From assembly GCA_021158105.1 (NCBI GenBank), contig JAGGVH010000046.1, positions 1 through 35,436 of the forward strand: a DNA stretch of 35,436 nucleotides, given 5' to 3'. The notes below the pieces were generated by a model. It made no database searches, was not told the DNA's origin, and saw only the letters and a program-made list of their open reading frames with translations. Each line of letters starts with the position of its first letter. Positions within the stretch are counted from its first letter, which is position 1. The position numbers and the translations under genes were made by a program. The stretch is from Microcaldota archaeon. Its GTDB lineage: Archaea > Micrarchaeota > Micrarchaeia > Anstonellales > JAGGVH01. Positions 4,241-15,878 of the stretch are shown here, piece by piece.

Positions 4241-4684
4241 TCAAAATTGGCTATAAAATTTTTTATTTATATAATTTTCAATTATTCTTTTACTTGGAAA
4301 AAACATTGGACTTGGCAAGTTGTTAATGTTAAACCATCTCCATTCAGTTATCTCCTCAGGTTCCATAACTTTAACTTCACCTTCAAATTCTGTAACTATG
4401 AAACCTATAGTAACAAAATGCGCATTCTTAGTTTTATCGTTTGATATACATAAGACTTTTGGGTTTTTAATTTTTAAACCGGTCTCTTCCAATGTTTCTC
4501 TGTATGCACATTCCTCAAAAGATTCACCAAAATTTAGTTTGCCGCCCGGCATTGTCCACGAACCTGCACCGCTTAACAAGGATGATGCTTTCAAAGGATC
4601 AGTGTGCCTTTTTCCGAGAAGAATTTTGCCATCCTTGAGAATCATTACGCCTATTCCTACACCGACCTTTTTCCAATTTTCCAT
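4241..4684 (-). CDS. NUDIX hydrolase
   Basis: Nudix box GGKLNFGESFEECAYRETLEETGLKI; likely start MENWKKVGVGIG at 4684, since the track N-terminus (4750) is tRNA-encoding DNA. Confidence 0.88.
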   Translation of the reverse strand: MENWKKVGVGIGVMILKDGKILLGKRHTDPLKASSLLSGAGSWTMPGGKLNFGESFEECAYRETLEETGLKIKNPKVLCISNDKTKNAHFVTIGFIVTEFEGEVKVMEPEEITEWRWFNINNLPSPMFFPSKRIIENYINKKFYSQF

Positions 4685-4707
4685 AAAATTCCTACCTCTA
4701 CAGAAAA

Positions 4708-4944
4708 CGGGCCCGTAGGGATTTTTAGGCGTCCTTTTTTCTCTTTTCAATTTTCAGTACGTTTCTTTTTTGATAACGTACCTTTTTTCTTTTTGAAAGA
4801 AAAAAGGTCGGAACCCTAGACCTACTGGTTTCTTTTTTCTTGATGAAACTTCTTTTCTAAAGAAGTTTCTTAAAAGCCAGCCGCTCTACCATTTCAGGTC
4901 TTGGCCCTTTATCAAGGAAACAAGACAAGCTGAGCTACGGGCCC
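4708..4944 (-). tRNA. tRNA-Lys (anticodon UUU) containing three introns
   Basis: Exons 4944-4928, 4892-4872, 4829-4811, 4724-4708 join to GGGCCCGTAGCTCAGCTTGGTAGAGCGGCTGGCTTTTAACCAGTAGGTCTAGGGTTCAAATCCCTACGGGCCCG, a full cloverleaf with 7-bp acceptor, GCTC/GAGC, GCTGG/CCAGT, TAGGG/CCCTA; no encoded CCA. Confidence 0.88.
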
Positions 4945-5045
4945 ATAACAATCAAACTTTGATTAACCTATCAAAATTGTTAAAACATATAAAAGAATAT
5001 ATTTAAAAAGCTCACCTTTGAAATTACCATGGATTAATAAGAGGG

Positions 5046-5864
5046 ATGAATATGTGGATGCCGAGACCAAAGTATGCGTATTATATTTCAGTTGGTATAG
5101 GGATATTAGGTTTTTTGTTTGCTGTCATACAAGGCGGAGTAATTGCAGGAATAGGTGGCATGATGGCAGGGTTGGGTGCAGTGCTATCTTTTCTTCTTTA
5201 TCATTATGGTTACATAATAATACCTTTTCTTACAAAGTTTTCTCGAATAGTAGTCGTAACTCCTGAGAGGGATTATGAAATTCCACCGTCACAGGATGTC
5301 ATAATAAAGAAGTCTGGTGATGTATACTATGCAACAAAATTCTTAGGTGTTGAGATATATGAATCGCCATCTGAGAAGTCACCTGAAGAAAATATAACTT
5401 ATATGTTATCTTTTGAACGTGCAATATCATCTGTTAAATATGTTACAAAGTTTTCCATGATGGTATATGTTCTTGATGTGTCAAAGAAAAAGAGAGATAT
5501 TGAAACAAAGAAGTATGAAGCACAGCTTAAACTTGCTAAGGAAAGGGAAAAGAGCGAGCCTGATGTTTTAAAGATTGACAAATTAGAGCATGAAATAGTG
5601 ATGTGGGAAAAGGAGCTTGATAAGATTGCCAAGGGTGAAAAGCCGATGAATGTTATAGCATACGTTATGACAACAGCAGTTGGCATTTCTAAGGAGTCGG
5701 CAATGGCGGCTGCCAATGCACAGGCTAATGAAATCAGGGCAACTGTTTCAAATGCGTTGAATGCCAAGGTTGATGTATTGAAAGCTGAAGACATGTTGAG
5801 ATGTTCTGAATGGGAATATGTTCTCCCAGCATCGTATGCTGAATGGCAGGAACAGGTTGATTAA
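5046..5864 (+). CDS. membrane protein, PrgI/TraC-N-terminal-like partner of VirB4-like ATPase
   Basis: Two hydrophobic segments near the N-terminus, then a soluble charged domain; 2 nt upstream of the HerA/VirB4-like ATPase gene. Confidence 0.55.
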   Translation: MNMWMPRPKYAYYISVGIGILGFLFAVIQGGVIAGIGGMMAGLGAVLSFLLYHYGYIIIPFLTKFSRIVVVTPERDYEIPPSQDVIIKKSGDVYYATKFLGVEIYESPSEKSPEENITYMLSFERAISSVKYVTKFSMMVYVLDVSKKKRDIETKKYEAQLKLAKEREKSEPDVLKIDKLEHEIVMWEKELDKIAKGEKPMNVIAYVMTTAVGISKESAMAAANAQANEIRATVSNALNAKVDVLKAEDMLRCSEWEYVLPASYAEWQEQVD

Positions 5865-14297: not shown

Positions 14298-15878
14298 GTG
14301 CGTAGCAATATAGGTAAAGAAATAGCTGATGAATTGACAATGATATTTAACAATAAGAGTGGTATGGATAGAGGTGAATTTATTAAGGTTGTTGAAGACA
14401 CTAAGATGAAGATTGCAAAAAAGTATAAGGTTGAAGTGCCTCGTAATTCTGAGATACTTAAGCATGTCAAGAATCCTGAATTGAGAAAGTATCTTGTTAA
14501 AGTGCCTTCACGGACAATATCGGGCGTAACACCTGTTGCGCTGATGACGACCAGTGGTTGCCCCCATGGCAGGTGCATTTATTGTCCAAGGGGCAAGTAT
14601 GCTGCACAGAGTTATACTGGTGAAGAGCCGGCAAGTTTAAGGGCAAGGCAGAACATGTTTGATCCTTTTATGCAGATAAAAGCTAGGCTTAGACAGTACA
14701 GGCAACTCGGCCATCCGACTGATAAGATTGAAGTGATAATAATGGGCGGTACATTTCTTGCGATGAGTACAAAGTATAAAGAGAATTTTATTATGAAGAT
14801 TTATGAAGCATTGAACGGGCGGGTTGCAGACAGTATTGAGCATGCTAAGATGATTAATGAAACTGCTAAGCATAGGGTTGTAGGATTAACAATTGAAACA
14901 CGGCCCGACTGGGCAATGGAAAAACATATTAATGAAATGTTGACGTATGGCGCAACACGTGTTGAAGTGGGCGTGCAGACGTTGAGTGATGAGGTGTATG
15001 AGAAGGTTGAACGTGGCCATAAGATTGTTGATGTTATAAAGTCTACCCAGTTGTTAAAAGATTCTGCGTTCAAGATTGTTTACCATATGATGCCCGGCTT
15101 GTTTGCAACACCAGAACAGGATGTCCAGTACTTTAAAACATTGTTTTCAGATGAGAGGTTCCAGCCTGACATGCTAAAGATTTATCCTACGTTGGTGTTA
15201 AAAGGAACTAAGCTTTATGACATGTGGAAAAAGGGCGAGTATAAACCGTATGATAGTGAGCAGGCGGCAGAAGTCATAGCAGAATCAATGAGGTATATAC
15301 CTGAGTATGTCAGAGTTATGAGGATACAGAGGGATATCCCATCACCTATCATTGCCGCGGGCGTTAAGCATTCTAACCTGAGACAACTGGTTGAGCAGCG
15401 CATGAAAGTCAAAGGCATCAAGCCGCGCGAGATTAGGTCAAGAGAGGTGGGCGTTACACTTAATAGGTATGGGAAAAAACTTAAGCTTGGCAATGTCCAG
15501 CCGGTCATAAGAAAGTATAACGCGAGCAACGGCAAAGAATATTTTATATCATATGAAGACATAGATGATGACGTAATATTAGGATTTATAAGGTTGCGTA
15601 TACCATTTAAGCCGTTCAGGCCTGAGATTGACAATACTACAGGACTTATTAGGGAGTTGCATGTTTACGGGTCAGAAGTGGGGATAGGCGACATTCCTAA
15701 CTATGAGCAGGCCCAACATAAAGGTTTGGGGCAGAAGCTTTTATCCCGTGCTGAAGACATTGCAAAGGATGAAGGAATGAAACATGTTGTAGTCATTTCT
15801 GGGCCGGGCGTTAGACAGTATTATTATAAACATGGTTATAAATTAGAAGGTGTATATGTCAAAAAGAGATTGGTGTAG
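14298..15878 (+). CDS. elp3: Elp3 family tRNA U34 carboxymethyltransferase (radical SAM + GNAT), GTG start
   Basis: CPHGRCIYCPRG radical-SAM cysteines; VEVGVQTLSDEVYEKVERGH; C-term QHKGLGQKLLSRAEDIAKDEG GNAT motif. Confidence 0.95.
   Translation: MRSNIGKEIADELTMIFNNKSGMDRGEFIKVVEDTKMKIAKKYKVEVPRNSEILKHVKNPELRKYLVKVPSRTISGVTPVALMTTSGCPHGRCIYCPRGKYAAQSYTGEEPASLRARQNMFDPFMQIKARLRQYRQLGHPTDKIEVIIMGGTFLAMSTKYKENFIMKIYEALNGRVADSIEHAKMINETAKHRVVGLTIETRPDWAMEKHINEMLTYGATRVEVGVQTLSDEVYEKVERGHKIVDVIKSTQLLKDSAFKIVYHMMPGLFATPEQDVQYFKTLFSDERFQPDMLKIYPTLVLKGTKLYDMWKKGEYKPYDSEQAAEVIAESMRYIPEYVRVMRIQRDIPSPIIAAGVKHSNLRQLVEQRMKVKGIKPREIRSREVGVTLNRYGKKLKLGNVQPVIRKYNASNGKEYFISYEDIDDDVILGFIRLRIPFKPFRPEIDNTTGLIRELHVYGSEVGIGDIPNYEQAQHKGLGQKLLSRAEDIAKDEGMKHVVVISGPGVRQYYYKHGYKLEGVYVKKRLV

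Follow-up and report, generated by a model that had tools for sequence, protein, structure and literature searches.

A three-intron tRNA-Lys(UUU) gene in a Micrarchaeota archaeon and the apparent spread of its T-loop intron among ten tRNA genes

The minus strand of the window (the whole stretch of 35,436 nucleotides analysed here, from a fragmented Candidatus Micrarchaeota MAG of 50 contigs) reads out between positions 4944 and 4708 as a tRNA-Lys(UUU) gene with four exons and three introns. We consider it very probable that this gene is functional and spliced by an EndA endonuclease and an RtcB ligase, and that its T-loop intron belongs to a portable family that has spread among tRNA genes of the same genome. 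Ten tRNA genes carry members of that family at one and the same position, and the locus would be one that shows tRNA introns spreading recently.

Gene anatomy and an intronless ortholog

The pre-tRNA-Lys(UUU) gene spans 237 nt (4708..4944, minus strand, as are all features listed here) and has the order GGGCCCGTAGCTCAGCT / 36 nt / TGGTAGAGCGGCTGGCTTTTA / 41 nt / ACCAGTAGGTCTAGGGTTC / 86 nt / AAATCCCTACGGGCCCG, with intron borders set by the bulge rule, in which the cut follows the second bulge base. Exon 1 (tRNA positions 1-17; 4928..4944) is followed by intron 1 (36 nt, D-loop 17/17a; 4892..4927), exon 2 (17a-37, with the anticodon UUU; 4871..4891), intron 2 (41 nt, canonical 37/38; 4830..4870), exon 3 (38-56; 4811..4829), intron 3 (86 nt, T-loop 56/57; 4725..4810) and exon 4 (57-73; 4708..4724), which carries a discriminator G and no encoded CCA. 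The initial annotation had the correct strand, gene ends and third intron, and placed the first two introns, at 4927-4893 (35 nt) and 4871-4830 (42 nt), each one base off at one border. Joined at the corrected cuts, the exons give the claimed 74-nt product with a standard cloverleaf and a correct 7-nt anticodon loop, called tRNA-Lys(ttt) by ARAGORN, whereas the junctions as first written were rejected because they leave an anticodon loop of only 6 nt and are returned as tRNA-?(tt). The expectation that scanners may miss this gene was borne out, as its unspliced form escapes ARAGORN, whether or not introns are allowed, and the Rfam tRNA model as well; low-threshold Rfam matches over 4600-5060 (microRNA and leader families) were set aside as chance hits from purine-rich palindromes. 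On the same strand, a NUDIX hydrolase gene (4241-4684, minus) starts about 24 nt downstream of the tRNA, and its frame in the mechanical ORF list is wrongly prolonged into intron 3.

A neighbour search with a HerA-like protein as query returned 23 loci, almost all in Micrarchaeota MAGs, the nearest of which (84% identity) lies on JAHKLX010000007.1 (locus L001) in a genome of the same genus, here G001. Between the same neighbours, L001 holds a tRNA-Lys(UUU) without introns, which aligns with the corrected product with no gap, and the gaps in its alignment with the unspliced gene coincide exactly with the three introns. Since this syntenic ortholog lines up exactly, the corrected exon joints are proven, and it agrees with the joined exons on the D-loop, 37/38 and T-loop arrangement that had been proposed for this non-thermoproteal gene. 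Exon 1 equals L001 except at a compensated position 4, exon 2 is identical (21/21), and exon 3 matches at 17/19 positions, one of the differences being compensated in exon 4.

Bulge-helix-bulge (BHB) motifs were scored against a null of 5000 dinucleotide shuffles. All three joints feature a central helix with 4/4 pairs and 3-nt bulges. At intron 1, UCAG (4933-4930) pairs with CUGA (4897-4894), flanked by the bulges CUU (4929-4927) and AAU (4893-4891) and the inner helix GUCUUG/CAAGAC, in the form first described (p=4e-4); at intron 3, GGGU (4816-4813) pairs with GCCU (4730-4727), with bulges UCC and AAA and with the GU pairs and relaxed character already recognised in the earlier reading (p=2e-4). 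With no more than two outer-helix pairs each, junctions 1 and 3 are relaxed motifs, not full hBHBh'. The motif proposed for intron 2, CUUU (4876-4873)/AAAG (4835-4832) with bulges UAA and AAA, is present but, with an internal loop, is weak and not significant alone (p=0.28), and the assignment of this intron rests on its canonical position and on the intronless ortholog. Intron 2 also contains the hairpin GAAACUUCUUU AGAA AAGAAGUUUC. In the minimum-energy fold of the precursor (z=-6.6), the acceptor stem, two long intron helices and an anticodon/intron helix all occur together.

The T-loop intron family: gain or loss

A genome search with intron 3 recovered, besides several partial copies, two more complete ones at 97%, and related introns occupy 56/57 in ten tRNA genes: Lys(UUU), Lys(CUU), three Arg, two Glu, Trp and two Ala (the nine further loci being L158, L159, L160, L161, L162, L166, L188, L189 and L039). 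The copies are 95-99% identical within size classes, which comprise an 86-nt class in Lys(UUU), Arg(UCU) and Trp (82-83/86 identical, the Arg(UCU) and Trp copies matching intron 3 at 83/86), a 91-nt class in the two Ala tRNAs (90/91), a 60-nt deletion form in Lys(CUU) (60/60) and a 38-39-nt class, reduced to the first hairpin, in Arg(CCU), Arg(UCG), Glu(UUC) and Glu(CUC). All ten introns sit in GGGTTC T-arms, and such tRNAs are the expected hosts because the intron GCCU pairs with the T-arm GGGU. Ten of the 17 GGGTTC-arm tRNAs carry the intron as against 0 of 11 others (Fisher p=0.0015, on our own tally of the tRNAs recognised in the genome, which misses some and treats related tRNAs as independent). 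The 3'-end pattern has ten exact matches in this genome and none in G001; as pairing with GGGU forces the motif, GCCTAA/AAATCCC (split at the cut site) was rejected as sole proof of homology, and the argument rests on the intron bodies. Lys(CUU) (L188; G000:C1:31150-31750) has introns at the same three positions as Lys(UUU), of 42 nt in the D-loop, 173 nt at 37/38 and 60 nt at 56/57. In the same genome, tRNA-Tyr(GUA) (L043; G000:C32) has two introns, of 49 nt in the D-arm and 48 nt at 37/38, and a tRNA with a CCG anticodon (L042/L159; G000:C16:4828-4919) apparently has one or two introns in the T-arm, at a joint other than 56/57.

Seven G001 orthologs of the host tRNAs, namely Lys(UUU), Lys(CUU), Arg(UCU), Arg(CCU), Arg(UCG), Glu(UUC) and Glu(CUC), are without a 56/57 intron, and the T-loop intron of G001 Trp differs in its body. 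These seven empty sister sites, in a comparison of two genomes of the genus, may reflect gain rather than loss, and the occupancy of ten genes most likely arose after the split from the sister species. Across 84 genomes of the order, Lys(UUU) often has introns in the D-arm, at 37/38 and in the T-loop, with all three regions occupied in L124 (G025) and L128 (G030), and in family f5 it is mostly intronless; the D-loop and 37/38 positions may be older. T-loop introns of Lys(UUU) in the other sampled genomes lie at 58/59 or 59/60, which speaks for an independent gain at 56/57 in this genome. Compared with Lys introns of other genomes, those of this genome are mostly no more similar than shuffled maxima, and the informative comparison is the one among different tRNAs within this genome.

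The strongest competing account, which we regard as appreciably less probable yet worth weighing, holds that the three-intron gene is ancestral, that its three introns were all lost in G001, for instance through recombination with a cDNA, and that the likeness among 56/57 introns reflects gene conversion. Three clean losses together are what cDNA replacement would be expected to leave, and Lys(UUU) genes across the order commonly have introns in the D-loop and at 37/38; against this account, seven separate G001 tRNA genes would each need to lose a 56/57 intron. G079, a genome from a more distant family, has 56/57 introns with similar bodies, and for this reason loss in the sister combined with gene conversion here is a reading that retains some weight, set against the near-identity of the copies within each size class and against the T-loop intron of sampled relatives' Lys(UUU), which is never at 56/57.

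Evidence for function and the dispersed hairpins

The mature tRNAs encoded by this gene and by L001 show five differences, four of which form two compensatory pair swaps (4:69 from U-A to C-G and 49:65 from A-U to U-A) and the fifth of which falls in the variable loop. The swaps indicate a gene under tRNA selection, and constitute strong comparative evidence favouring a working tRNA and disfavouring a pseudogene. A 22-nt block with a TATA-like box, GGTGAGCTTTTTAAATATATTC (4995..5016, minus), is identical upstream of the L001 tRNA and is putatively promoter-like. A second tRNA-Lys(UUU), named in the initial annotation as something to look for, did not appear: in this genome, 88.8% complete, a D/anticodon-arm pattern finds one copy, although the pattern misses genes such as Lys(CUU), whose 37/38 intron alters the bases after the anticodon. 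A short pattern for further Lys tRNAs, GNTCTTTTAA, was barely better than its reversed control and was discarded. That insertions might have turned the gene into a pseudogene or a tRNA-like remnant, with Lys(UUU) supplied by another tRNA, would sit well with the failure of standard scanners and with the room that an incomplete genome leaves for another copy, but we consider it very improbable given that the exons are intact and compensated, that no other copy is found by the arm pattern, that each insertion coincides exactly with a spliceable, BHB-bearing joint and that many relatives' Lys(UUU) genes have similar anatomy.

Introns at several different tRNA positions carry copies of two hairpin modules, CCTTTTTTCTTT..AAAGAAAAAAGG and GAAACTT..AAGTTTCATC. 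The latter, the hairpin of intron 2, has about 55 exact matches in 24 genomes, and its reversed pattern has 0. About half of the matches examined lie in tRNA introns (D-loop, 37/38 or T-loop), three are insertions within the 23S rRNA of relatives (L195, L204 and L214), and others in relatives follow 16S rRNA, tRNA 3' ends or stop codons, with direct placement after stop codons or tRNA 3' ends at L176, L194, L212, L230, L228 and L229; at these last sites it is a candidate terminator, RNA processing signal or mobile element. This distribution suggests a dispersed element able to become an intron, and a shared functional hairpin is equally possible. Its occurrence in relatives near 16S rRNA and behind stop codons and tRNA 3' ends could also mean that parts of the insertion in the present gene are an independent small RNA or terminator rather than introns, a reading given very little credence since the exon joints are exact and both exact matches in this genome lie within tRNA 37/38 introns. 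As a tentative generalisation, which we would not put above a minority chance, Micrarchaeota tRNA introns may be small mobile hairpin copies that insert widely and survive where the flanks allow a relaxed BHB for a broad-specificity endonuclease.

Splicing machinery and relation to known systems

The initial annotation had singled out the type of splicing endonuclease as a point to check. The genome has a single such gene, of 379 aa, whose residues 2-379 match residues 5-387 of ARMAN-2 EndA (4FZ2) with E=1.5e-98. Its three-unit single chain (N-domain, catalytic unit and C-terminal beta unit) matches 4FZ2 lengthwise, the ARMAN-specific loop residues Y160/K161 (GTYK) and the catalytic Y236/H251/K282 are kept, and GTYK, FRLYFPG, HSKHVIHVF and VRKTF are conserved (roles of the ARMAN loop, ASL, and of the catalytic residues: PMC12397907). 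By homology, the enzyme is of the ARMAN-2 (epsilon-2), broad-specificity type. The genome also encodes an RtcB ligase (L231; G000:C30:14051-16735), in one open frame of 940 codons; an insertion of some 450 aa, probably an intein, interrupts the RtcB match.

We infer from sequence that the tRNA-Lys(UUU) precursor is expressed, cut and ligated. In the model that we favour, its transcript would be cut six times by the ARMAN-2-type (epsilon-2) endonuclease, at the three relaxed BHB motifs in the D-loop, at 37/38 and in the T-loop, and RtcB would join the four exons into the 74-nt tRNA. The T-loop intron would act as a portable cassette whose last bases at the 3' end, GCCUAA, pair with the GGGU conserved in T-arms, making it spliceable from any GGGUUC-arm tRNA, and its relatives would have come to occupy 56/57 of ten tRNA genes, most likely since the sister species split. 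Elsewhere in the window, 14298-15878 on the plus strand encodes an Elp3-like radical SAM/GNAT protein; enzymes of this type modify U34 of tRNAs such as Lys(UUU).

The wider question here is the origin and spread of tRNA introns. Transposition of tRNA introns within Thermoproteales is described, with its mechanism in archaea given as unknown, in PMC4090602. In the present case, one genus supplies the same locus both with its introns and without them, the target set of the ten T-loop copies (GGGTTC arms) follows from the splicing motif, and introns at three positions of one tRNA offer a concrete substrate set for the ARMAN-type endonuclease. The gene is also a warning that standard scanners leave genes out of the tRNA inventories of Micrarchaeota.

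Up to three introns in a single tRNA have been recorded in archaea, mostly in Thermoproteales (PMC8450103, PMC4390854), examples being tRNA-Pro(UGG) of Pyrobaculum islandicum, with introns at 25/26, 37/38 and 56/57 (PMC4090602), and tRNA-Glu(UUC) of P. calidifontis (PMC4090602, PMC4390854). The initial statement that multi-intron tRNAs belong mainly to that group is dated, as ARMAN-1/2 are listed for them (PMC4033280) and three Asgard genomes have multiple introns in more than half of their tRNA genes (PMC11291895). The Thermoproteales cases resemble the present gene in having three BHB introns, including those at 37/38 and 56/57; unlike them, it is a tRNA-Lys from a DPANN archaeon with an epsilon-2 rather than an (alpha-beta)2 endonuclease, its first intron lies in the D-loop at 17/17a, and it has an intronless syntenic ortholog in the same genus. 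Intron transposition in Thermoproteales, as PMC4090602 summarises it, likewise places near-identical introns across tRNAs for different amino acids in one genome, whereas the family in this Micrarchaeota genome occupies one position (56/57) in ten tRNAs, in classes of 38-39, 60, 86 and 91 nt, with a restriction to GGGTTC arms explained by BHB pairing. ARMAN-1 and ARMAN-2 (PMC4033280, PMC12397907, PDB 4FZ2) belong to the same archaeal group and share the orthologous endonuclease with its ARMAN-specific loop as well as non-canonical introns; multi-intron tRNAs are named for them, with no three-intron case or intron family described in PMC4033280 or PMC12397907. Atabeyarchaeia and Freyarchaeia also have intron-rich tRNAs, more than half with multiple and often non-canonical introns, but are Asgard archaea, and the portion of PMC11291895 available describes no intron family. 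Multi-intron tRNAs and tRNA-intron transposition are thus already known from Thermoproteales, ARMAN and Asgard archaea, and the present case stands out by how well its empty-site ortholog documents it; new, as far as these systems were compared, are the occurrence in one genus of both three-intron and intronless forms of the gene, a family of ten 56/57 introns in a DPANN archaeon and a pairing rule that explains the hosts of that family.
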